From contig JAAZCQ010000003.1 of NCBI GenBank assembly GCA_012513225.1, positions 1 to 64,000 on the forward strand: 64,000 nucleotides of DNA, read 5' to 3'. Position 1 is the stretch's first letter, and the number at the start of each line of letters is the position of its first letter. Origin of the DNA: Erysipelotrichaceae bacterium (lineage in GTDB: Bacteria > Bacillota_I > Bacilli_A > Erysipelotrichales > Erysipelotrichaceae). Under the pieces are notes generated by a model. It worked only from the letters and a program-made list of their open reading frames with translations. It did no database searches and had not been told where the DNA came from. The translations under genes were made by a program, and so were the position numbers. Of this stretch, positions 33,016-45,920 are shown piece by piece.

Positions 33016-33066
33016 CGGTTTTTTTAAGCATATTCATATATAATAAAAATAAACAGAGGTAAACAT

Positions 33067-33243
33067 ATGAATGAAGAATTAAAAACCAAACTACAAGAGC
33101 TAGAATCACTTACAAGGATATTAAGTGAATCAATGGAATTAGTACCAGATACACATGATGAATCTATTAAGAAGAGTGATGTATCAAATATACTAGCGAT
33201 TATCAATAATAAGGTAAAAGAAATCATAGAAGAACTAGAGTAG
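33067..33243 (+). CDS. Small hypothetical protein, 58 aa
   Basis: A plus-strand gene divergent from the str operon. ATG at 33067 follows AGAGGT; the stop is TAG at 33241. The peptide begins MNEELKTKLQELESLTRILS, is acidic and almost entirely helical, and likely forms a short coiled coil. A TATAAT-like box (about 33038-33044) lies upstream with no clear -35. The antisense frame over it is a shadow. I recognise no family. Confidence 0.6.
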   Translation: MNEELKTKLQELESLTRILSESMELVPDTHDESIKKSDVSNILAIINNKVKEIIEELE

Positions 33244-33507
33244 TTATTTTATGTGTTATTAGATAACTGAAAGAGATATCAAAAAGTTTTATCCACAAAA
33301 TGAAAAAAATAAAAAATGATGTAATTCAGTTTTTTCATTATTTTATCACAATATTTTCTAATGATTTTATGTTGTTATTTATTAAATCTTTGTAGTATTT
33401 CTTGTACAGTCATCTATAATCACTATTTCTTTTAGTATGATTACAAGATTATATTCACAGCTAATAAAGATGGAATAGGTCTTTCAATTACTTTACGATT
33501 ATAGAAT

Positions 33508-33815
33508 TTATAAAATACTCAAAATATTTGTTGACGATTTTTTTTCTTCAATAGTAATATCCAAATAAATTTTAAACTCGTGCTCAATTTCTAAAGCAAT
33601 ATTTTTAATTATTTCGTATTTTACATACAATTGATCTAATTTAGGCATAGTTCTTCTAGGATCATGGTGTGGTGTAGTCAATATTTTCCTTATACCTTCT
33701 TTATATGATATGCGATATATGATATGCAATGTTAATATTTTTTGTATCTTCTATAGATATTGATCCATCATCAACATCAGTAATGAAATGACAGTATATA
33801 TCTGTAAACAAAACC
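33508..33815 (-). pseudogene. Decayed CpsB/YwqE-type PHP-domain tyrosine phosphatase
   Basis: Two minus-strand frames join into the N-terminal half of a CpsB-like protein. The first reads DIYCHFITDVDDGSISIEDT and KNINIAY; after a shift near 33720 the second reads SYKEGIRKILTTPHHDPRRT and MPKLDQLYVKYE. The order DIHSHILPGVDDG ... EGI..I.ATPHH is the metal-binding signature of this family; here the first His is Tyr, and the protein breaks off before its C-terminal half. Such phosphatases sit in capsule/EPS loci, and one lies a few kb downstream of this relic, so it may be a discarded part of that locus. Confidence 0.7.
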
Positions 33816-33975: not shown

Positions 33976-34004
33976 TTGACAATATAACGTTATTGCGTTA
34001 TATT
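33976..34004 (+). promoter_or_regulatory. Promoter with perfect operator-like inverted repeat, AIPR-XRE cassette
   Basis: TTGACA (33976-33981), spacer of 17, then TATATT (33999-34004). The nine-base arms AATATAACG (33981-33989) and CGTTATATT (33996-34004) form a perfect inverted repeat with a six-base centre that covers the spacer and the whole -10 box. Binding there would shut the promoter. Further AT-rich near-repeats (ATATTGCGATATA, CGATATTCGC) follow to 34040. The XRE protein of the cassette is the likely ligand. Confidence 0.8.
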
Positions 34005-34092
34005 GATATTGCGATATATTATTATTCCGATATTCGCTATCTTTTTATAACTCTGTTAAACTTATGAGTTTAACTAGAAACGGAGGATCTAT

Positions 34093-35247
34093 ATGATCAA
34101 AAAAATTATGGCAGTAAAAGACAGCTCTTTCAGAAGGTTAGATGACCCGTTCATTAACACAAATCAAAAAAAGTATATATTCTATGTACATGTTAATGAA
34201 GTGCCTGAAGGTATTCCAATGGCAACAAATCCTCGCGATCAAAAACTTACATCAAATGTTGCTAAGGCAATTACTGATTCCTTATTAAGCAACGACGGAT
34301 ATTTCCATCTAAAAAATAGAGGTATTGTGTTATCAGCAGAAAGTGTCCACTATAGCAACAAAACAGGTTTAGTTGAAATTAATTTCAAAGATGATTTATA
34401 TCATGGAAACATCGATGGAGGACACACTTATAAAATAGTCTGTGAACACCAAAATGAAGGATTAGATCAGTATGTCACTTTTGAAGTAATGACTGGAGTA
34501 GAGGATATTATAGAAAGTTTAGCCGAATCAAGAAACACATCTGTTCAAGTTGATGAAAAATCGATGGCTGAATTAGCCCAACAGTTCGACCCTATTAAAG
34601 AGGGTCTTGAAGGAATGCCATTCTATAATAGGATTGCATTTAAACAAAACCAAACATCACTTGATGAAAACGGAAAGAATGAGCGAATGATTGATGCTCG
34701 TGAAATTGTAGCAATAATAAATATGTTTAATGCCGATAAATTTGATCAAAGTAGCCATCCAGTTCAGGCTTATTCATCAAAAGCAAAAATGCTTGAGCTT
34801 TATCTTAAAGACCCTGAATCGTATAGAAGATACGTAAATATTTTACCTGATATCTTTGATTTATATGATGCAATAGAAGCTGAATTTGCTGAAAGTTACA
34901 ATGCTGCTGGTGGCAGATATGGCAGAAAGAAATATTCTGGTTATAAGGATGGAAAAATTGTCGGAAAAAGTAAGTTTGGCGCAGTTGATCTTCAATACAA
35001 AATTCCTGACGGAATTATTTATCCAACTATTGCCGCTTTTAGATCATTAGTATATTATGATTCAAATACAGATAGATATACTTGGAAGAATGATATTAGT
35101 CCCCTAGATGTTTGGAATAAAGTTAAAAATGAACTTACCTCTAAAATTATGAATTTTGCATCTTCAATTGGTGATAATCCAAATGCTGTAGGGAAAGATT
35201 CCAATATTTGGGATTTAGCATACATGACTGTTGTAGTAAATAGCTAA
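34093..35247 (+). CDS. AIPR-like (abortive infection phage resistance family) protein
   Basis: A 384-residue protein whose core matches the pattern of AIPR-type proteins. It has a strand and turn reading GYFHLKNRGIVLSAESV (about 76-92), then NIDGGHTYKIV (about 106-116, where relatives have NGxQT or DGQ), then VTFEVMTGV and a helix rich in SLAESRNTSVQV. The N-QT and ARNTQVxV-like motifs are the family hallmark. The rest is helical with no TM segment. GGAGG precedes the ATG. An XRE gene follows 10 bases behind. Some AIPR proteins come from phage-resistance plasmids and R-M neighbourhoods; the biochemical activity is unknown. Assignment is by motif reading. Confidence 0.72.
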   Translation: MIKKIMAVKDSSFRRLDDPFINTNQKKYIFYVHVNEVPEGIPMATNPRDQKLTSNVAKAITDSLLSNDGYFHLKNRGIVLSAESVHYSNKTGLVEINFKDDLYHGNIDGGHTYKIVCEHQNEGLDQYVTFEVMTGVEDIIESLAESRNTSVQVDEKSMAELAQQFDPIKEGLEGMPFYNRIAFKQNQTSLDENGKNERMIDAREIVAIINMFNADKFDQSSHPVQAYSSKAKMLELYLKDPESYRRYVNILPDIFDLYDAIEAEFAESYNAAGGRYGRKKYSGYKDGKIVGKSKFGAVDLQYKIPDGIIYPTIAAFRSLVYYDSNTDRYTWKNDISPLDVWNKVKNELTSKIMNFASSIGDNPNAVGKDSNIWDLAYMTVVVNS

Positions 35248-35257
35248 AGGAGGTTTT

Positions 35258-35476
35258 ATGAAATATTCAGTGAAATTATTAATTAAAGATTTAATTGAAG
35301 AAAAAGGTATTAGTCAAAAAAAACTGGCAGAAATGTCAAATGTAAGAGAATCTACAGTGAGTGATATTGTTAGAGGTAATCGTACCGTGATTAATTTTGA
35401 TCACCTAGCAAAAATTGCGGAAGCTCTGGAAATTGAAGATATTTCTAAGCTTATTAAAATCGTAAAAATAGATTGA
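35258..35476 (+). CDS. XRE-family transcriptional regulator, probable antitoxin-like partner
   Basis: A 72-residue Cro/C1-type helix-turn-helix protein: IEEKGISQKKLAEMSNVRES (13-32) and TVSDIVRGNRTVINFDHLAK are the turn and recognition helix of HTH_3. A strong AAAGGAGG site stands before the ATG. It is the second gene of the pair, in the order larger gene then regulator. It probably binds the inverted repeat at the cassette promoter and limits expression of the AIPR-like protein; whether it also neutralises it is unknown. Confidence 0.85.
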   Translation: MKYSVKLLIKDLIEEKGISQKKLAEMSNVRESTVSDIVRGNRTVINFDHLAKIAEALEIEDISKLIKIVKID

Positions 35477-35696: not shown

Positions 35697-35769
35697 TATT
35701 GTTATTTTGATTAGTACCTATATTTAAGGATGAAGTTAGAAATAACATTTAAATAAATATTCTTGAAAT

Positions 35770-36816
35770 TTATTCTTGTTTTGTAAATCCAAAATATTCG
35801 TATGTTTTCTTTTCTAGTTCTAGTAGTGTACTACTCACTTGATAATCATCATCATTGTATATATGTAAGTGAACTTCTTTAACAAGTTTTTCAAAGTTTT
35901 TAGGAACATATATTGGACCATAACCTTGGTATGATATAACTTCACTACTAGCCACTCCATCACTTGGTATTGAGTTTTGAGTAATATTATTTAAATCAAA
36001 TGAAAGTAGTGATGTTAGATAAGTCTTTATTTCATTATTAGTAATATTAGTTTCTACATAAGGAAGCATTTCATTAACTATGTCTAATATTTCTAATGGT
36101 GATTTTGTTTTAAGTTTTCTAACTATTTCTTTTATTACTTTGTTTTGTCTTTCCATTCTATAAAAGTCATCATCAATGTATCTTATTCTAGAGTAATTCA
36201 TTGCTTGTTTACCATTAAGAGTATAGACTCCTTCTTCACCATAGATTCCAAGTGGTTTATCTCTTTGTAGTATTTCTTGACCTTTTAAATCTATATTTAC
36301 TCCACCTACTAAATCAACAAGTTTTTCTGAGGCTTTAAAACTAAATGTAGCATATTTAGTAATGTCTAAGTCAAAGTTTGTATTTATTGTCTTAATAGCA
36401 AGAGTAGGTCCACCAAACCAATATGCATGATTTAGCTTTGACCAATCATTATGTGGATCTGGCATATATACTAATGTATCTCTTTGAATAGAAGTAATAT
36501 TAATGACTTTATCATCAAAGTTTAAACTTATAACTTTTATAGCATCACTTCTATCTGTATCAGAATAGTTACCATCATTATCCGTACCAAATAAAGCTAT
36601 GTTTACAACTTTAGTAGCTTTTTTTGACTTTTGTACTTCTTCAGATATTCCAGCATCTTCTACTTTTATCTTTTCAGTTCTTTCTGTTTTATTTAAAGTA
36701 TTATCTACAAAAGCATTAATTCCTAAGTAACCTAAGCCAAAAATTGATATTATTATAGTTAACACCAATATAACTTTTACTTTAGTTTTCATTTTTTTCT
36801 TTTTAATTTTTGACAT
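35770..36816 (-). CDS. LytR-CpsA-Psr (LCP) family glycopolymer transferase
   Basis: Attaches undecaprenyl-linked wall glycopolymers or capsule to peptidoglycan outside the cell. A Lys-rich cytoplasmic start and one TM helix (about 12-30) are followed by the LCP domain with TDRSDAIKVIS (about 92-102), SIQRDTLVYMPD with the catalytic Arg (about 112-123), KLNHAYWFGG, and SRIRYIDDDFYRMERQ. The start is taken at the ATG of MSKIKKKK (36816), because GGAG stands 8 bases before it; a longer frame from 36834 covers that site. It closes the EPS locus and is the probable ligase for its product. Confidence 0.9.
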   Translation of the reverse strand: MSKIKKKKMKTKVKVILVLTIIISIFGLGYLGINAFVDNTLNKTERTEKIKVEDAGISEEVQKSKKATKVVNIALFGTDNDGNYSDTDRSDAIKVISLNFDDKVINITSIQRDTLVYMPDPHNDWSKLNHAYWFGGPTLAIKTINTNFDLDITKYATFSFKASEKLVDLVGGVNIDLKGQEILQRDKPLGIYGEEGVYTLNGKQAMNYSRIRYIDDDFYRMERQNKVIKEIVRKLKTKSPLEILDIVNEMLPYVETNITNNEIKTYLTSLLSFDLNNITQNSIPSDGVASSEVISYQGYGPIYVPKNFEKLVKEVHLHIYNDDDYQVSSTLLELEKKTYEYFGFTKQE

Positions 36817-37013
36817 ACAAAGTTCTCCATACAAGTAATCAATGAAAATATTATAAGCAAATAATATTAATTAAACAATGGGAAGAAATTTTAAGGAATG
36901 TTATTATTGGTGATAATTTTCAGAAGACATATTCAACAATTTAAAAATTTTACTTATTTTATTAATTAATACACTTTCCTACTTAATCCAAATAAAACTT
37001 ACCTTTTATGCTA

Positions 37014-38180
37014 TTAAATATCATTTTCTTTAAGCTTGACAATAATTCTTTCAATTTTTCTTCTAACTTTTTGGTATACTTTTTGATAAATAGGCTTTTC
37101 AATATATTTACATAATTGATTAATATTTTTTTGATCTAGCTCTTTAAAAAATAGCTCTCTATTCTTGTGAGGAATTACTGATTTTCTAGAATCAGCGGTA
37201 GCTGGCAAAATTACATCTAGTTCAGCCTCTTTTATTACTAATTTTTTTCTGACTGAAGATAATAATTCATTTCCTTTTTTTGAATTTGTTATTAAAACAG
37301 ATGTTCCTTTATCATCATCCATATCTGACATATGATTTTCAATACCCCAAGCATCACCAATTGTTAAATCTGACTCTCTTGGAAAATCTTTAAACTTACA
37401 ATCATGACAAGAAGGTCGCAAACATATCTCATTCAAAAATAGTTTCATAAAAGGATCATCATGATGATTCTTAAGGTATGCTTTATCTTTATATTTTAAA
37501 GATAAAGCAAACCTTTTCCATCCAAAGTCTTTTTTTCTGAAAAAGGTTTGCTGAAGTTTTGAACCGTACTCGAGTTCTTTCTCAGATAAATATTTTTTCC
37601 AAACTTTCGGACTTGGAACTCCATGACATAAAACATCTATAGTATATAAATTAGAATATTCCTTTCTTAAATATCGTTTGAGTCCCTCAATCTGACACGC
37701 AGTACCTGTAAACAATACTTTCGTATTTTGATCTAAATATGTTTTTACTTCTTTCAAACTATTCTTCATATTACTTTGTAAGTACTTACTTCCTTGTAAT
37801 TTGTTTAATTCTTCATTAGATTCAATAACAATATGTTCAACCATAAACTCATTATCAAATGCTGCTCCTGCAACCATACCACCTTGATTAAATATTTGAT
37901 TCGCAAATATTGTAAACAAACCACCTGATGAACTCTTTAATCGTATTTCATCGTTATCCGTATATGCAGCATAAGCCTCAACATCAGTTTTCTTGGACTT
38001 TTTTTTATTTAGTATTGGACATACTTTTACACATAGATTACATGATATACACATTTCTGTATTTACACTAGGATAAAGGAATCCTTCATCATCAAATAAC
38101 ATCGAAATACAATTTGTCGGACATACTTGTTCACATGCAGTACATCCACAGCAATCTTTTTTATTTAAAATTTCAATCAT
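37014..38180 (-). CDS. FrhB-type iron-sulfur protein of the EPS locus
   Basis: A 388-residue protein with two ferredoxin-type clusters: C10-C11-x-C13-x2-C16-x3-C20-P and C44-x2-C47-x2-C50-x3-C54-P. It then has the coenzyme F420 hydrogenase beta-subunit domains (GTACQIEGLKRYL; SDLTIGDAWGIE). Such proteins occur in many bacterial capsule loci next to polysaccharide pyruvyl transferases, where their exact reaction is not settled; reduction of a sugar or use of a flavin is suspected. Its start overlaps the flippase gene by 8 bp. A decayed second copy lies at 43178-43621. Confidence 0.88.
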   Translation of the reverse strand: MIEILNKKDCCGCTACEQVCPTNCISMLFDDEGFLYPSVNTEMCISCNLCVKVCPILNKKKSKKTDVEAYAAYTDNDEIRLKSSSGGLFTIFANQIFNQGGMVAGAAFDNEFMVEHIVIESNEELNKLQGSKYLQSNMKNSLKEVKTYLDQNTKVLFTGTACQIEGLKRYLRKEYSNLYTIDVLCHGVPSPKVWKKYLSEKELEYGSKLQQTFFRKKDFGWKRFALSLKYKDKAYLKNHHDDPFMKLFLNEICLRPSCHDCKFKDFPRESDLTIGDAWGIENHMSDMDDDKGTSVLITNSKKGNELLSSVRKKLVIKEAELDVILPATADSRKSVIPHKNRELFFKELDQKNINQLCKYIEKPIYQKVYQKVRRKIERIIVKLKENDI

Positions 38181-39696
38181 ATTTTCTCTCCAAATAATTT
38201 TGAATTGGTTTAAAAATCAATTCTTTTTCATAATCATTAAACCCATATTTATATATTAGGATAATAAAAGAAATTAAATATATTATACCAACGGTAATAA
38301 AACTAATAAAATTTGTAACACCAATGAACAATTTTCCTAAATATCCGATGCAAAAAGCAAAAAGTATCGATGGTAACAGTTTACTAATTTCTTTCCAAAA
38401 ATATTCCATATCTAAACAAACTACTTTTTTATAATAGATATTCATTATAATTATATTCCCAACTATCAAAGCAATTGCAGTTCCTAATGCAGCACCAATC
38501 TCGCCAAATTTTATTGTTAAAGGAATACTAATTAAAATATTACTAACTGCAATAAACAAGTAAACAAATGATCTAAATTTGTGTAAATTTTTAGCTCTCT
38601 GTATTTCTATCCCTAAGTTTTGAATTAAAGGAATGGTAACGGGAGTAATCAATAATAATGCTACATAATATGCTGTATGATATTCTGTGCCCGCCCATAC
38701 AGATATAAAATAATTACCAACTATGATAAACCCAGATAAAATACATGATAAAATAATAAATTGTATTCTTCCAACTTTTGTAAATATATCAGTTAAAGTA
38801 GAATTATCATCATAGTCATTAGCTATAATTTTATTTACTCTAGGTATAAAAACGGATGAAACTGCAGTAGATAAATTCATATATAATGTATTTATTTGTC
38901 CACCTATTGAATATATTGCCACAGACACTGTACCTCCAAAAACTCCTAATATATATTTATCTACACTCCAATTTATTTGGTCAACAATAATATTAATAAA
39001 AATATAAAAAGAAAATGTTCCAATTTCTTTAAATAGACTAAAATCAAAATCTTTAAATATAAAACTCATATGTAATTTATTTTTGCAATAAAAAACATTA
39101 ATAATCAACTTTGAAAATGTTAAGACAGTTGTTACTATAATTAAGCTAACTGACTTATATCCCATCACTAATAATGGTAGTGCTAAAAATGGATTACAAA
39201 CTGTTTCTAATAATTGAATAATTCTTTGAAAAAAATATTTTTCATTAGCAGTTACATACGAATCAAATACACTTGATAGAAAAGTTAAAGCAAGATTTAT
39301 TACCATAAGCAACATTAATAATTTCGCAGTAGATATTTCATATTCAGTTAAAGATTTACCAAAAATTACTTCAATATTATAGATCAACAAACTTCCACAC
39401 GCAATTGTTATTATCGATATCAAACAAAAAACAATCAAAAATAAACCGTTGAGCTTAGCTAATCCTATACCATCATTTAATCTATTATATCTCGAATAAA
39501 ACCTAACATAAGCACTTCCAAATCCAAAACTTAACAATCCTAAATAGCTAACTACAGAATATACTAATTGATATAAACCATATTCACTTTGTCCCAAAAG
39601 TCGTAACATTATTGGAGTATATAGAATCGCTATAGCATTTTTAGCAAACATAGTTAAATACGAAAGAATAATACCTAGCTTTAATTGGCTTTTCAT
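38173..39696 (-). CDS. Wzx-like polysaccharide flippase
   Basis: Membrane protein of 507 residues with about 14 TM helices, of the polysaccharide transport (PST/RfbX) group that flips lipid-linked repeat units across the membrane. The N-terminal pattern AKNAIAILYTPIMLRLLGQS is usual for Wzx. It sits between the FrhB-like gene and the pyruvyl transferase gene, 5 bases from the latter, in a Wzy-dependent type locus. Confidence 0.88.
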   Translation of the reverse strand: MKSQLKLGIILSYLTMFAKNAIAILYTPIMLRLLGQSEYGLYQLVYSVVSYLGLLSFGFGSAYVRFYSRYNRLNDGIGLAKLNGLFLIVFCLISIITIACGSLLIYNIEVIFGKSLTEYEISTAKLLMLLMVINLALTFLSSVFDSYVTANEKYFFQRIIQLLETVCNPFLALPLLVMGYKSVSLIIVTTVLTFSKLIINVFYCKNKLHMSFIFKDFDFSLFKEIGTFSFYIFINIIVDQINWSVDKYILGVFGGTVSVAIYSIGGQINTLYMNLSTAVSSVFIPRVNKIIANDYDDNSTLTDIFTKVGRIQFIILSCILSGFIIVGNYFISVWAGTEYHTAYYVALLLITPVTIPLIQNLGIEIQRAKNLHKFRSFVYLFIAVSNILISIPLTIKFGEIGAALGTAIALIVGNIIIMNIYYKKVVCLDMEYFWKEISKLLPSILFAFCIGYLGKLFIGVTNFISFITVGIIYLISFIILIYKYGFNDYEKELIFKPIQNYLERKYD

Positions 39697-39701
39697 AATA
39701 T

Positions 39702-40748
39702 CTACTTATTTTCCTTTTTTAATGACTTTTTTAAGAAATCTATTGATTTTTGACGTTCTATATTAATCTTTTCATATACATCATTTCCAAATAGTTTAAA
39801 ATTATCATCACTAATTTCTTTATCAAACTTTATATTGGAAAGTCCAAAATTTGTTATAAGGGTATTAATTCTTGAATTCATAGAAAAAATATTTTGGTTT
39901 CTCTCAAAAACAACCAAAGGTTTGTTAAATATCAAGGCAAAAACACATGAATGAAATGAATCGGTACAAATTAATTCCGCATTTTTTTCAAGATATAAAA
40001 ATTCACTTGGACCACATTGAAAAAAAGGACTATTTTTATTTAATATATCAATCACTTTCAAATCTTTAGCAGCTGATATTGTTTTTATTTTACTCATATA
40101 CTTATCATTATCACCTAAAAAATAACTCAAAATATACTTTTTTGGCATTTTTACTTTTGGTCGTTTAATAACACTATCCCATTTATGTGCATCTAACAAC
40201 ATTGTAGGATCTAATACAACTTCAACATCTTCTCTTCCAGATAACTTTTTTACAATCTCTTTTCCTTTATTTTCTCTTACAGAAATGTTCTTAAATTTTT
40301 TTAGTTCATTTGATACATTTATATTTTCCTCAATACTTGAAATACCAAAGCTTGCTGCATAAGATATTCTTTTAGATGGACGAACAAAAGATAAAAGATC
40401 AACTTCTCTTAATCTACCAAATATAGGATTCCAAACTTGATCTGACCCAACAATATAAAAATCGTATTTCTTATCTGATGCATATGGAGTTAACTTTTTC
40501 TCATTGAATTTTATATTTTCGTTAAACGATTTAAAATTATTTGCTCTATTAACATTATCAGAATATCCATCTTTCTTTTTAAAGTTTTTAATTTGTCTTA
40601 ATATAAATTTAACTTTTGTATTTGAATATGGATAATTAATCAAAGTTTCTGAATTATACCCTAATTCAGCTAATACTTCTTGCAACGCATAGTTTTGCAA
40701 TCTGTTCCCATAATTATCATAATCATTTATTGTAACTATTCCTATCAT
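39702..40748 (-). CDS. Polysaccharide pyruvyl transferase family protein
   Basis: Predicted to add a pyruvate ketal from phosphoenolpyruvate to a sugar of the repeat unit. It opens TINDYDNYGNRLQNYALQEV, has the VGSDQVWNP motif (about 95-103), DPTMLLD, and the GxxH-like ICTDSFHSCVFALIFNKPLV segment near the C-terminus, all typical of the family (CsaB/WcaK type). The 348 residues are normal. A GGAGG site precedes the start. Confidence 0.9.
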   Translation of the reverse strand: MIGIVTINDYDNYGNRLQNYALQEVLAELGYNSETLINYPYSNTKVKFILRQIKNFKKKDGYSDNVNRANNFKSFNENIKFNEKKLTPYASDKKYDFYIVGSDQVWNPIFGRLREVDLLSFVRPSKRISYAASFGISSIEENINVSNELKKFKNISVRENKGKEIVKKLSGREDVEVVLDPTMLLDAHKWDSVIKRPKVKMPKKYILSYFLGDNDKYMSKIKTISAAKDLKVIDILNKNSPFFQCGPSEFLYLEKNAELICTDSFHSCVFALIFNKPLVVFERNQNIFSMNSRINTLITNFGLSNIKFDKEISDDNFKLFGNDVYEKINIERQKSIDFLKKSLKKENK

Positions 40749-40775
40749 AAAAACCCTCCTTATATTTTATATTAT

Positions 40776-41951
40776 TTAAAATTTTATATGTATTTTTCTT
40801 TTTTTTGGCTTAACTTTGTTTAAAAATTTTTCAGATTCTACTTGCTTATATGTGATACATCCAATTACTAAAAATGTTAAAATCCAATTAAATGAATTAC
40901 TCAATGAATGCGAAGTTAACAAATTAAAAAATTGAAAACCCATTAATGTATTAGTATAGATTATTTGCCCTGAACAATTCCAATAATTAAATACGAATAT
41001 AATTAACCCTAGAAAACCAGTTTCAATTAAAATTTTAATTAAATCCATTTCTAAACTTTTGCCAAGAAATTTTGTTGTACTACCTAAACCTAAATTAGTA
41101 AAATTTCCGTTCAATATCCAAGATAAAAATTCACTACGTCCCATAGTAAATTTTCTTTGTGTTTCATTAAATATTTTATAAAAAAGTGTTGATGAAGATG
41201 GCATTAGTAATAAATAATACACTACTGTTAAAATAATAAACATAATTTTTAAAAACATTTTTTGATTCTTAGTGACCATTCTATCCATATTTACAACCAT
41301 CGGCAAAAAGAATAATAAAAGAGCAAATAATACGGAAAATCTTTTAAATGTAAATAAAGGAAATATAAAACTTAAATACTTCAATACTTTATTTTTTCTA
41401 AAATACATAAAAAAAGTAAAAAATGCAACTGATGCTCCGGCTGCAGCACTCGATTCAAATGGTGAATAAGAATTTGAAAAATCAACACTTAATATATTAG
41501 AATACGAAAAGGTACTAAACCCTATTTCTAAAATATATCCAAGCATTGAGAATGCAAATGCAAGTACCATTGATTTATATATATCTTCAAAATCAAATGT
41601 ATTTAAAATAAGAAAAACATATGTAATAGGTAAAAATAATTTAAATAATTCTTCTAACAATTTATTATTAGATCCTCTATTGATAAACATCATTAATAAT
41701 GAAATAACAAAAAATAACACAATTATAATATAAACACTTTTTATTTCTTTCAAATATATTAATTTTTTCTTTTTTATTAATTGTAATGCACAAAACAACA
41801 TTCCAAATATTAGAAAAAAATATTTTAAATTAATTAATGGACTTGATATATCTCTTGTAACATATATAGCATCTGTTAATGACCTAGACGCAAAAATTAA
41901 AGTAAATATCAAAGTATTTATCACACTAATAATTTTTCTATTTGTTGCCAT
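40776..41951 (-). CDS. Wzy-like O-antigen/EPS polymerase
   Basis: Integral membrane protein of 391 residues with about ten TM helices and a large outer loop (roughly 230-290, with RSEFLSWILNGNFTNLGLG). There is almost no fixed motif in this class, and the call rests on topology and on the position between glycosyltransferase and flippase genes. The RSEF/GLG pattern in the loop fits Wzy ligase-polymerase proteins. Confidence 0.75.
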   Translation of the reverse strand: MATNRKIISVINTLIFTLIFASRSLTDAIYVTRDISSPLINLKYFFLIFGMLFCALQLIKKKKLIYLKEIKSVYIIIVLFFVISLLMMFINRGSNNKLLEELFKLFLPITYVFLILNTFDFEDIYKSMVLAFAFSMLGYILEIGFSTFSYSNILSVDFSNSYSPFESSAAAGASVAFFTFFMYFRKNKVLKYLSFIFPLFTFKRFSVLFALLLFFLPMVVNMDRMVTKNQKMFLKIMFIILTVVYYLLLMPSSSTLFYKIFNETQRKFTMGRSEFLSWILNGNFTNLGLGSTTKFLGKSLEMDLIKILIETGFLGLIIFVFNYWNCSGQIIYTNTLMGFQFFNLLTSHSLSNSFNWILTFLVIGCITYKQVESEKFLNKVKPKKRKIHIKF

Positions 41952-41969
41952 TTATTACCTCATTCTCTA

Positions 41970-43004
41970 TTATATTTTTTTAAATTTGTATTTTATATTA
42001 AATAAAATCGTAATGATAATGGCCATTTTTAGCCTAACTAAATAATAAATTAAGCATCTTCCCATATCTAGCTCTTTTGTAATTGAATTTGAAATATCTA
42101 CATCAGTGTTACATTGATGAATTTTAGATTTTATTTCTCTATACTTGTTAAAAAAACTTACATCATTTTTCATAATATTTGAAAAAGTCAAAGTATACAT
42201 AGTAAACTTATTAATGCCGTATCTAATTTTTAAATCATCATTTTCATTAATTCCATATTCTATAAATCTTTTCTTTAAAAGTTTATGAACTTGATAATTT
42301 ATATCATCAAAATTTTTTTTATAATTACCAGTTACAGAATTCTCATTTCTTACATAATTATAAAAGGCTTTATTGATTACCAAAATTTTATTAGATTCTC
42401 GTAAAGCGTCTATGAAAAATAATAAATCTTCTACAATTGGAATATTCTTTTCAAAGAATATATTTGTGATAACTTCCCTTTTAAATATTGCTCTCCATAC
42501 TGCTCCCATAATAGAATTTTTTTCTGATTTAAGTTTTCCAATCATGTGTAGCATAAATTTAGATATTATTGACTCATCATCAAACTCTTTTAAAGTATCA
42601 CTCCATGGAAAACCCACTTTTTTCTTTTTGCTTTTATAAATTTCATAATATGAATATATATATATATCAGCATTATATTTTTTCATTATTTTTTTGAAAT
42701 TTAACAAGTATCCTGAGTCTAAATAATCATCAGCATCTACAAAAGTGATAAATTTTCCTTTTGCGCTCATGATTCCAACATTTCTAGCTACAGAAACACC
42801 TTCATTAATTTTATTAATAACTCTAATTCTTTGATCCATTCTACTTAATATTTCGAGTTTTTCTAGAGTGTGATCATTGCTACCATCGTTTACTACAATT
42901 ATTTCCATATCATCAAATTCTTGTAATATTAATGAATTTATGCATCTTTCGATATAATTTTCACAATTATATACTGGTATAATTATACTTATCATGCAAC
43001 TCAT
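41970..43004 (-). CDS. Family 2 glycosyltransferase
   Basis: Cytoplasmic GT-A fold enzyme that adds one sugar to the lipid-linked repeat. It has IIIPVYNCENYIERCINSLI (7-26), VVNDGSNDHT (36-45) and the metal-binding DADDYL (about 94-99), then the ED acid region VEDLLFF. The C-terminal part ends in a basic amphipathic or TM segment. The 344 residues are usual for EpsJ-like enzymes. The sugar cannot be predicted. Confidence 0.92.
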   Translation of the reverse strand: MSCMISIIIPVYNCENYIERCINSLILQEFDDMEIIVVNDGSNDHTLEKLEILSRMDQRIRVINKINEGVSVARNVGIMSAKGKFITFVDADDYLDSGYLLNFKKIMKKYNADIYIYSYYEIYKSKKKKVGFPWSDTLKEFDDESIISKFMLHMIGKLKSEKNSIMGAVWRAIFKREVITNIFFEKNIPIVEDLLFFIDALRESNKILVINKAFYNYVRNENSVTGNYKKNFDDINYQVHKLLKKRFIEYGINENDDLKIRYGINKFTMYTLTFSNIMKNDVSFFNKYREIKSKIHQCNTDVDISNSITKELDMGRCLIYYLVRLKMAIIITILFNIKYKFKKI

Positions 43005-43177
43005 AAAATCTACCTCCCCTCAAATTTACAATTGTTTTTCTATCCAATCATACACAATATAGCCATTATGAGCTTTAATTTTAATATATAGTTTACAAAA
43101 AAAGTATACAATTCGCTTTCCTATGATTTCTTCGAACAATTTCAACGGTTGATTCTAATTCATCTTTTATTCTTTTG

Positions 43178-43621
43178 CTAATTCTTTTTATATTCATATA
43201 TCCCTTTTTTATCACCATTACTTTGCACAATTGATTTTATTTTTATTCTAAATTTTCTTGGAATTGCATTAAATATCCAACGAATAAATAAATGTTTTCT
43301 ATATTTGCTAAAAAACCATTTATTTAAATAATAATCTTTATTATTATATAGATTTAAAATTGTATTTCTTTTATTAGTTAACTTAGAAGGTCTTTTTAAC
43401 TGTTCATTTTTCTTAGATACTTTCTCAAAAGAAGATGAAATGACTTTTAAATTATTTAATTGTTTGTAGAAATTTCGCCCTTTAATTGTATTTATTAAGA
43501 TACACGAAACTCCCTTTTCTTCATCTAATTCGCTAGTATGTATAATCTCAGGATGCTCTTCTTAAATTCCCCAATAATCTCCAATAGTTAGATCAGAAAC
43601 CCTTAAATTACCTGTAAAACC
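43178..43621 (-). pseudogene. Decayed second FrhB-type iron-sulfur protein gene
   Basis: The minus-strand frame from 43621 reads GFTGNLRVSDLTIGDYWGI, stop, EEHPEIIHTSELDEEKGVSC and ILINTIKGRNFYKQL, ending at a TAG (43178-43180). SDLTIGD-W-GI and D-DKG-S-ILINT also occur in the intact FrhB-like protein at 37014-38180, so this is the C-terminal third of a paralogue. The cluster-binding N-terminus is gone. Bases 43021-43177 may hold another short broken frame (MNIKRISKRIKDELE), and 43622-43707 nothing I can name. Confidence 0.75.
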
Positions 43622-43707
43622 TGTATACTATTATAATAAAAATATTTGGGCACCTCCGCAAGATAGATATAGTACTGCAAATCACACATTTCACTCATAC
43701 TACTCAC

Positions 43708-44745
43708 CTAAATTAACGTTTTATTAAACTCTTCAAGAATAGAATCTGTAGAATATCTCTTTGCTTCATTTTTACACTCGTATTGTATCTCTTCATACAA
43801 TTTATTATTTACATAAAGTTCATATAAATATTTGGCAGCTACTCTTATATCTCTATACGGATATATAAGTCCATTCTCACCATGTCTTATTATTTCTTTA
43901 TTATATTTCCAATCATTTACTATCATAGGTGTTTGGCTGACAAAAGCGTCTAAAATTGTTCCCGCAAATCCTTCTCCTTCATAATATGTCGGGAAAAGCA
44001 AGGCAAAATAATTGCTTAATGTTGCTGGCCCATCATCAGCATTTTTCACCCCACAATAATTAATTATATTAGTATTTTGTGAAACCGACTTTTCAAATTC
44101 GGTTTTAAATTCAGGATCTATTTTTCCGTATATATCTAAATAAAATAGATTTTTTTTAGACTGACGATTAGCCTCTTTTACTATTTCTATTGCATCCAAA
44201 ATACCTTTTTCTTTAACTACTCTCGAATAGGTACATACAGGTAACGGTTCAATCCATTGTTGTGTTCTTTTAATCGGCATTATCGGCAAAATTCTAAAAT
44301 TGGGCATATGATATATTTGGCTAATACCAATATTTTGTAACTTAGAAACCATTTCTTTTGTTTCTACATGAACTGCATCAAATGAATAAATGTATTTCTT
44401 CATTCGAGGTTTTTCAGATAACATCTCTGGTAACCAACCGCCTATTACAACATAATGAACTTTTCTCTGAAATACTTTATTGAAATAGTATATAAGTGGA
44501 GCAAATACTTTTATGCCATGCTGTGCAGGCATTATAATCACATTATTACATCTAAAAAAAGCGTTTAATAGATTTACAAACAATTTCAATGGAGTTTTAT
44601 TCCATTTATAAGTGTTCACAACATCTATGTCATTTTTGCCATATTTTTTCTTCAACCAATTAATAACCTCATAGCATTTCACAGCTTGCCCTGTTGTAAA
44701 ATCAGACCCTACTCCATATATACCAACCACTGCTGCTTTTTTCAT
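43708..44745 (-). CDS. Family 4 glycosyltransferase
   Basis: GT-B fold enzyme with VVGIYGVGSDFTTGQAVKCY at the N-terminus, VVKEKGILDAIEI in the nucleotide-binding domain, and the ExxxE-type FPTYYEGEGFAGTILDAFVS segment (about 258-277 from the ATG). The start is taken at the ATG of MKKAAVVG (44745), 7 bases behind GGAGGG, and not at the in-frame ATG at 44766. It follows a stretch of about 640 bases that contains only broken genes. Confidence 0.88.
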   Translation of the reverse strand: MKKAAVVGIYGVGSDFTTGQAVKCYEVINWLKKKYGKNDIDVVNTYKWNKTPLKLFVNLLNAFFRCNNVIIMPAQHGIKVFAPLIYYFNKVFQRKVHYVVIGGWLPEMLSEKPRMKKYIYSFDAVHVETKEMVSKLQNIGISQIYHMPNFRILPIMPIKRTQQWIEPLPVCTYSRVVKEKGILDAIEIVKEANRQSKKNLFYLDIYGKIDPEFKTEFEKSVSQNTNIINYCGVKNADDGPATLSNYFALLFPTYYEGEGFAGTILDAFVSQTPMIVNDWKYNKEIIRHGENGLIYPYRDIRVAAKYLYELYVNNKLYEEIQYECKNEAKRYSTDSILEEFNKTLI

Positions 44746-44771
44746 ATAAATTCCCTCCAATAACATAAATG

Positions 44772-45920
44772 TTAGCTTGAAGCTTCAATATCCTCATACT
44801 CAATTATATTGCCGGCATAAACTTCAAGAATCTGTGTTACCACTTTATCCCAGTTATATTTATCAAGTATATATGGTGCTGCTTGCTTTTTAAATAAACT
44901 CACCATCTCATTATTATCCAATATTTCTTGCATCTTTTCTTTCAATTGCATGATATTTCCTTTTTCAAAAATAATCGCTTTATCTTTTACAACCTCAGTA
45001 TTTTCCGGGATATCACTTACTAGGCAACAATTACCATAACTCATTGCTTCCAATAGTGCATTTGCCATCCCCTCTAAGTTACTTGGAAGTATAAAAGCAT
45101 ATGCGTTACTATACAATTCAGCTATCATATCTCCTGTTACAAAACCAACAAACTTGATTCTGTCATCGTTTTCTGCCTGTTCAACAAGATGTTTATAATA
45201 ATCGCTATTTGCTTCAGAACCTCCGGCAATTATTAATTGTTTATTGGTTTTGCACTGAAGAAAAGCTTCTATCAAATAATGTAGACCTTTTTCTGGAACT
45301 ACCCTTCCTAAAGAAAGCAAATAATTATCTTTCTCCAAGCCAAAACGCTTTTTAATTTTAACTGGCGGAAGTAAGGTGGGTGCATCTACTCCATTTGCAA
45401 ATAACACTGATTCAACACCATATGTATCCTTTATATACCTCTTCATGTTTTTGCTCAAAACAAGACAAACATCTGCTTTAGTTGCAGCCATTTTTTCCCC
45501 AAATCTAAGATAACGACTGGCAAATCCTCCCCATTTATCACGTTGGGAATCAATTCCATGTAAAGATGCTACACAGCGAATTCCGAATAGCTTCGCCAGT
45601 GGAATCATTGCACAAGATCCTGAAGCACGATATGAAATAACATCATATCGAGAAAAAATTGCATGAAAAGTCGCTAAAAACGAATAAATAGGAACGCAAG
45701 CACTTCCTTTTACTGTTGGGACGGTTACTATTTTGATACCTTTATAATTTTTAAATTTTCTATCATCATATTCTTTCCCAAAAACATTATGTCCACCACG
45801 ATTATATGCGGTCACTTTGTGCCCTCTGGAAATCATGCGAATTGCATGCTGCTCCACACCCTTTTCAATTCCTCCCTCGTTGGAAGGAATTCTTTTGTGT
45901 CCAATTATTCCAATTTTCAT
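44772..45920 (-). CDS. Family 4 glycosyltransferase, DUF1972-type N-terminus
   Basis: The N-terminal GHKRIPSNEGGIEKGVEQHA segment is the acceptor-side domain found in rhamnosyl- and galactosyl-transferases of capsule loci. It is followed by a GT4 domain with LGRVVPEKGLHYLIEAF, the GGSEA turn, and LPSNLEGMANALLEAMSYG (about 287-305). The 382 residues are usual. As the first transferase after the sugar-nucleotide genes it may add the second residue of the repeat unit. Seventeen bases separate it from ugd. Confidence 0.88.
   Translation of the reverse strand: MKIGIIGHKRIPSNEGGIEKGVEQHAIRMISRGHKVTAYNRGGHNVFGKEYDDRKFKNYKGIKIVTVPTVKGSACVPIYSFLATFHAIFSRYDVISYRASGSCAMIPLAKLFGIRCVASLHGIDSQRDKWGGFASRYLRFGEKMAATKADVCLVLSKNMKRYIKDTYGVESVLFANGVDAPTLLPPVKIKKRFGLEKDNYLLSLGRVVPEKGLHYLIEAFLQCKTNKQLIIAGGSEANSDYYKHLVEQAENDDRIKFVGFVTGDMIAELYSNAYAFILPSNLEGMANALLEAMSYGNCCLVSDIPENTEVVKDKAIIFEKGNIMQLKEKMQEILDNNEMVSLFKKQAAPYILDKYNWDKVVTQILEVYAGNIIEYEDIEASS

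Follow-up and report, generated by a model that had tools for sequence, protein, structure and literature searches.

The locus described here constitutes, with a probability of roughly 0.6, a mobile, self-contained cassette in which an AIPR-type effector and a dedicated XRE repressor share one promoter, with additional control by a leader hairpin and a role in abortive infection or against plasmids. It lies within a window of 64,000 nucleotides, i.e., the whole stretch of DNA that was analysed. In the proposed mechanism, a single promoter would transcribe both genes and, since the XRE protein and the operator are conserved together, XRE would most likely bind as dimers to the operator between the -35 and -10 hexamers and to a third box, thereby blocking RNA polymerase and autoregulating the operon. 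After transcription, AIPR might bind the leader hairpin, or the hairpin might otherwise limit the synthesis or activity of AIPR, which is predicted to combine a ParB/sulfiredoxin-like nucleotide-binding domain with a helical C-terminal half. Phage or incoming DNA would lift the repression, and AIPR would then act as an abortive-infection or anti-plasmid effector. The cassette is most likely an inducible defence effector that is held down by XRE and subject to a second control in its leader. To our knowledge, AIPR is among the oldest family names in phage resistance. The cassette represents a minimal version whose parts, a single effector, repressor, operator and RNA hairpin, lend themselves to joint cloning and testing.

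Both genes are located on the plus strand, and ten bases separate the AIPR stop codon from the XRE start codon in the open reading frame list and the sequence, as the initial annotation of this DNA had reported (Table 1). The genes, promoter and inverted repeat of that annotation were retained, while the conserved hairpin in the leader had been missed.

Table 1. Features of the AIPR-XRE cassette (positions refer to the window)
Feature	Position	Strand	Remarks
-35 hexamer TTGACA	33976-33981	+	top promoter-like site of the region
-10 hexamer TATATT	33999-34004	+	17-nt spacing, identical in relatives
Putative operator, inverted repeat CAATATAACG-TTATTG-CGTTATATTG	33980-34005	+	over promoter spacer and -10 box; arms of 10 perfect bases
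Third operator box TTGCGATAT	34009-34017	+	16 bp past the second; GCG conserved in 14-15 of 17 loci
Leader RNA hairpin	34052-34078	+	match to covariance model R1 at 34045-34084, 39.9 bits
Shine-Dalgarno sequence GGAGG, AIPR gene	34082-34086	+	from the sequence
AIPR-family protein, 384 aa	34093-35247	+	PF10592 match
DGGHT codons (residues 108-112), candidate nucleotide-binding motif	34414-34428	+	invariant in 49 aligned sequences
Shine-Dalgarno sequence AGGAGG, XRE gene	35248-35253	+	from the sequence
XRE (HTH_3) regulator, 72 aa	35258-35476	+	PF01381, E 4e-13

Comparison with related loci indicates that the AIPR-XRE pair is a real, horizontally spread and mobile cassette. An alignment query yielded 166 relatives in named genomes, and a single-protein query of viral and genome contigs gave no close relatives. 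Among 146 relatives scanned, three genomes, including the one analysed here, hold the cassette, and two other genomes of the same genus are devoid of it. A maximum-likelihood tree and the gene order separate three AIPR groups, termed clades A to C. Clade A comprises 21 loci (54-74% identical), window included, from Lachnospiraceae, Oscillospiraceae, Selenomonas, Listeria and Paenibacillus, and in the tree its 17 rows are united in a single starred set (100/97). The XRE gene is situated directly downstream of the AIPR gene in 19 of the 21 loci, the exceptions being one Listeria lineage, so that the same pair does recur elsewhere. The initial annotation had named the lack of a profile match and of the pair in other genomes as grounds against its reading; on both points, which are the computable ones, the opposite was found. 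The clade A neighbourhoods have no third gene in common, and a minority of them adjoins restriction or other defence-like genes. In clade B, the XRE gene belongs to a different family and is mostly located upstream in divergent orientation, while the AIPR genes of clade C, with few exceptions, have no XRE gene within the distances searched. Plasmid-borne relatives show 27-38% identity across more than 90% of the protein length. The 5.6-kb Enterococcus faecalis plasmid NC_019385.1 (L009) carries a replication gene, an epsilon antitoxin gene, a hypothetical gene and an AIPR gene with a divergent XRE gene; matches of equal score were found in similarly small plasmid records of E. durans and Corynebacterium ulcerans.

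With 11 of 12 matches, TTGACA-17-TATATT ranks first among the 18 promoter-like sites of the region; given the AT-richness of the DNA, chance would yield the same number of sites, and the promoter call on its own means little. All 17 aligned XRE-carrying relatives contain TTGAC (15 contain the complete TTGACA). When the alignment is anchored on TTGACA, these 17 clade A loci have the spacer sequence AATAACGNTATTGCGN in common. The spacer of the window is 71-94% identical to those of 16 relatives, while the flanks show 17-48% identity, and the mean information per base amounts to 1.27 bits within the spacer as opposed to 0.20 bits on the upstream side of the boxes and 0.15 bits on their downstream side. 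The operator is kept at a divergence at which synonymous sites are near saturation. In a leave-one-out test, for which the matrix was built without the scored locus, all 17 loci scored above each of 200 shuffles (20.7 bits for the window operator, shuffle maximum 12.4). The conservation of the spacer in 17 loci with differing flanks and the outcome of the leave-one-out test together place the operator beyond chance. Most of these loci also carry the third box. The DNA switch is thereby shared by numerous bacteria of the gut. Altogether, the operator was identified in the promoter spacer of 17 of the 19 XRE-carrying clade A loci; XRE is likewise present in L037, where the operator is not recognisable, and in L042, where it has diverged. 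The inverted repeat over the -10 box noted in the initial annotation exists, albeit with arms of ten rather than nine bases. The 1.55-Mb host genome contains a single copy of the exact operator core TAACGNTATTGCG, site counts being based on pattern searches.

The presumed reader of this operator is also conserved: relatives differ very little in the recognition helix of XRE, RESTxSDIxRGxRTV, and no close XRE paralogue was found in the own genome. The XRE proteins of clade B carry an unlike helix, SRAYYGRIERGEHSxT, and the promoter palindrome of this clade, AACGTCATATATGACGTT, differs from the clade A operator, as would be expected if each XRE protein reads its own operator. The palindrome was observed together with a mostly divergent XRE gene in L050, L051, L056, L057, L058, L062, L069, L074, L079-L082 and L104. 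Based on the gene pairing, the shared operator, the single genomic core and the separate palindrome that accompanies the clade B XRE, comparative analysis lends good support to autorepression of the cassette by XRE through an operator inside the promoter, which was the regulatory model put forward initially. Small HTH genes adjoining the effector gene, combined with operator boxes in tandem across the promoter, are also known from the C proteins of restriction-modification systems and from other HTH autoregulators of defence loci. The cassette shares this arrangement with the C proteins and differs in effector and operator sequence; sequence matches to the Control_protein and CapH models reflect generic HTH similarity.

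The assignment of the 384-aa protein to the AIPR family, suspected from the start, was confirmed by a match over its whole length to PF10592 (E 6.4e-34; 118.5 bits, cut-off 25; residues 45-352, profile positions 3-293 of 308). No model of the PADLOC and NCBIfam libraries matched this protein; weak matches to the PADLOC AbiU model were obtained for 10 of the 49 aligned sequences, at best with an E of 2e-5. An N-terminal HEPN RNase domain (Rx4-6H), which is an extra claim made for some AIPR proteins rather than a criterion of the Pfam family (PMC3506569), received no Pfam match, and the invariant R and H residues do not show the Rx4-6H spacing. The gene evolves under strong constraint, i.e., purifying selection, with a dN/dS of about 0.03 for the closest pair of relatives (dN 0.05, dS 1.6). 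No solved structure was found by sequence. The predicted full-length model (pLDDT 90.7, pTM 0.63) gave no PDB match below 1e-3 in Foldseek. The N-terminal 174 residues (pLDDT 89.5, pTM 0.83) matched the ParB-type structure 6sdk_A with a probability of 0.92 (TMq 0.44), at a non-significant E of 0.11, and further ParB-type structures (7bnr, 0.66; PadC and Noc, 0.30), none of them significant by E-value; no other kind of structure was matched with fair probability, and in a viral structure library, AIPR and GmrSD-N proteins were matched. The N-terminal domain thus weakly resembles the ParB nucleotide-switch fold in these models. The predicted N-terminal fold may recall that of DndB/DGQHR, GmrSD (DUF262) and ParB-CTPase proteins, and the DGGHT motif is comparable to DGQQR/DGQHR; DGQQR of GmrS aligns with the ATP-site signature of sulfiredoxin (PMC4619093). 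This parallel and the ParB-type matches make an NTP-driven switch in AIPR a reasonable, if weak, proposition. Unlike those proteins, the 384-aa protein matches none of the Pfam models for DndB, DUF262 and ParB and has no HNH domain, and dnd genes are lacking nearby; of the two family profiles suggested initially, PF10592 and DGQHR/DndB, only the former applies.

AIPR proteins described so far occur in restriction-modification operons (PMC2292703) or together with Z1, PD-(D/E)XK and methylase genes (PMC9523054). In contrast, the AIPR gene of the window is solitary except for its XRE partner: none of these partners, mza-like genes included, is adjacent, and it is flanked in the window by genes for translation and by polysaccharide genes. 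AbiU1 and the N-terminus of DndB have been grouped with the AIPR family (PMC3506569), and AbiU of Lactococcus lactis (AbiU1/AbiU2) likewise is a two-gene locus with a family member, AbiU1. However, the 384-aa protein fails the AbiU model, and its partner is a Cro/CI-type HTH protein (HTH_3), whereas AbiU2 is a HEPN protein (PMC3710099). The link between AIPR and defence rests on gene neighbourhood and the distant kinship with AbiU1 (PMC2292703, PMC3506569); by this association in the literature, in which no published test of a solitary AIPR protein was found, the protein is a probable anti-phage protein.

Between promoter and start codon, most clade A loci have the potential to form a hairpin of one geometry with a free upper-stem sequence. 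In the window, it consists of a lower stem UCUG/UAGA, an upper stem of 7 bp, a UAUG loop and one unpaired base on the 3' side, which is C here and G in most relatives. In an alignment of 13 clade A sequences, 91.7% of cells pair, compensated changes occur at 7 of 12 pairs, and covariation reaches a score of 0.619, compared with 0.289 (sd 0.033) for shuffled and at most 0.215 for slid alignments. The 13 members were initially picked by eye, and exactly these were recovered by the covariance model from 633 kb of loci (E < 4e-6; next match E 1.9). Scans of whole genomes detected one strong copy in the own genome and in each of five out of ten others. Rfam searches of the leaders gave irrelevant or sub-threshold matches only, none at or near the gathering score. 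By its conservation and covariation, the window hairpin is a previously uncatalogued conserved RNA element. No intrinsic terminator was found in the window leader. The AUG of the loop was considered as an upstream start codon and rejected, as the codons that follow are in frame with AIPR only in some loci and no ribosome-binding site precedes it.

Covarying structured RNAs are present at the effector gene in all three AIPR clades. The clade B hairpin (GGAUG-stem-GGA-stem-GUAUCC) shows compensated changes in 7 of 9 pairs and a score of 0.574 vs. 0.226; it was seen in most of the clade B loci that bear AACGTCATATATGACGTT. In clade C, a two-hairpin leader has 11 compensated pairs (score 0.418 vs. 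0.201) and no Rfam match, and in many cases an intrinsic terminator follows it immediately ahead of the ribosome-binding site. Its layout suggests an attenuator or riboswitch-like RNA. Hairpin P1 reads AGCUU-G-stem-GAUUUU-stem-UUU-AAGCU and P2 CCAGUAUCU...AGAUGUGG with a bulged A; examples are found in L053, L068, L075 (1458-1600), L077, L084, L085, L088, L090, L094 and others.

Across the clades, the hairpin tracks AIPR and not XRE. Because it persists where promoters, operators and XRE proteins differ, AIPR is the component to which it most plausibly belongs. It could serve as an RNA target of AIPR or as its inhibitor, and its conservation suggests a second, RNA-level control of the cassette. 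It is doubtful that the hairpin is an ordinary stem that stabilises or spaces the mRNA without a specific partner: its position between promoter and ribosome-binding site would suit this function, as would its absence from several members (L027, L035, L039, L040 and Listeria, several of them with intact AIPR), but the UAUG loop, the lower-stem bases and the single unpaired 3' base are conserved while the upper stem varies. In addition, leaders of clades B and C also show a related two-tier geometry; the strict pattern, with G opposite GU or CU, was detected in 16 of 82 leaders vs. 17 of 1640 dinucleotide shuffles. A tentative and rather unlikely extension would regard AIPR proteins in general as RNA-controlled defence effectors of a double-locked (DNA repressor plus RNA) abortive-infection system, with the leader hairpin, whose conserved lower stem and G/[G,C]U internal loop persist in three clades of differing promoters, operators and XRE partners, as cognate RNA, be it inhibitor, sensor decoy or autoregulatory target. 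Should AIPR indeed have the hairpin as its partner, the family, hitherto regarded as a restriction accessory, would become an RNA-controlled effector, and the leader RNAs of the sister clade, which are uncatalogued and often end in a transcription terminator, would provide a ready assay for what the AIPR family senses.

A type III-like system, in which the leader hairpin binds and inhibits AIPR and XRE adds a transcriptional layer only, appears unlikely, although it has a precedent in AbiF, an Abi-type gene that is also headed by a conserved structured RNA: in C. difficile, AbiF is neutralised by its abiF RNA, RCd22, which contacts the protein and acts both in cis and in trans (PMC12373285). 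The co-occurrence of hairpin and AIPR across the clades would agree with this analogy, and so would the fact that, wherever the model detects the hairpin, the single strong copy is situated at the AIPR leader. However, AbiF belongs to an unrelated protein family, and the element described here is a single short hairpin of two tiers that lacks a separate terminator in the window and is missing from the intact members listed above.

The cassette displays one trait of type II toxin-antitoxin systems: by comparison, it is a two-gene operon encoding a small HTH protein, and the promoter of this operon contains a conserved putative operator for that protein. That AIPR is a toxin which XRE neutralises by binding, in addition to repressing the operon, is nevertheless quite improbable. 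The gene order, effector first and HTH protein second, together with the autoregulation is toxin-like, and relatives are frequent on plasmids, including the small Enterococcus plasmid with little else. Moreover, the AIPR frame is broken in 4 of the 21 clade A loci (L031, L043, L044 and L046; one in-frame stop and three frameshifts) and the XRE gene, where present, is intact in these loci; yet this excess is not significant given the gene length, and some cases stem from draft assemblies. Against an obligatory bond, Listeria rustica (L038:2800-4400) encodes an intact AIPR, and its genome contains no XRE homologue at E < 0.1, so that the effector was retained without its partner in this single lineage. 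L. cornellensis (L044:2800-4400), with a frameshifted AIPR gene, likewise lacks XRE and the spacer operator; both species retain TTGACA-17-TAATAT. Loss of XRE most likely explains this state, as Paenibacillus L042, which carries XRE, branches earlier. The idea of a clean joint loss of operator and XRE in Listeria was softened, as a weaker relic site persists downstream of the -10 box. The differing XRE families, with a mostly divergently transcribed partner in clade B, and the general absence of XRE from the searched surroundings of clade C genes also speak against a toxin-antitoxin bond. Given the intact L. rustica AIPR without a close XRE relative and the other XRE family in clade B, XRE looks more like a repressor than an obligatory antitoxin; of the toxin-antitoxin-like unit with autorepression proposed initially, the autorepression is supported and the toxin-antitoxin-like character is weakened.

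That AIPR is itself a regulator instead of an effector, i.e., a DndB-like NTP-dependent repressor or co-repressor, is very improbable, for although its predicted fold is ParB-like and the related DndB (PMC3506569) is an ATP-dependent transcriptional repressor (PMC12704722), the loci share no third gene to regulate, the genome holds one exact operator core and a repressor is already supplied by XRE.

The genomic setting agrees only in part with the initial annotation, which had placed the cassette between a ribosomal operon and a decaying EPS relic. The upstream neighbours rpsL-rpsG-fusA-tuf are indeed present, on the minus strand, and the flank upstream of rpsL shows no synteny with the nearest genomes. 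The downstream polysaccharide genes (35758-45920) are full-length open reading frames, and the term “decaying” is therefore unsupported for these genes. Between rpsL and the cassette (33024-33729), short minus-strand open reading frames, which may be gene remnants, were observed in a stretch with a G+C content of 22-24%.
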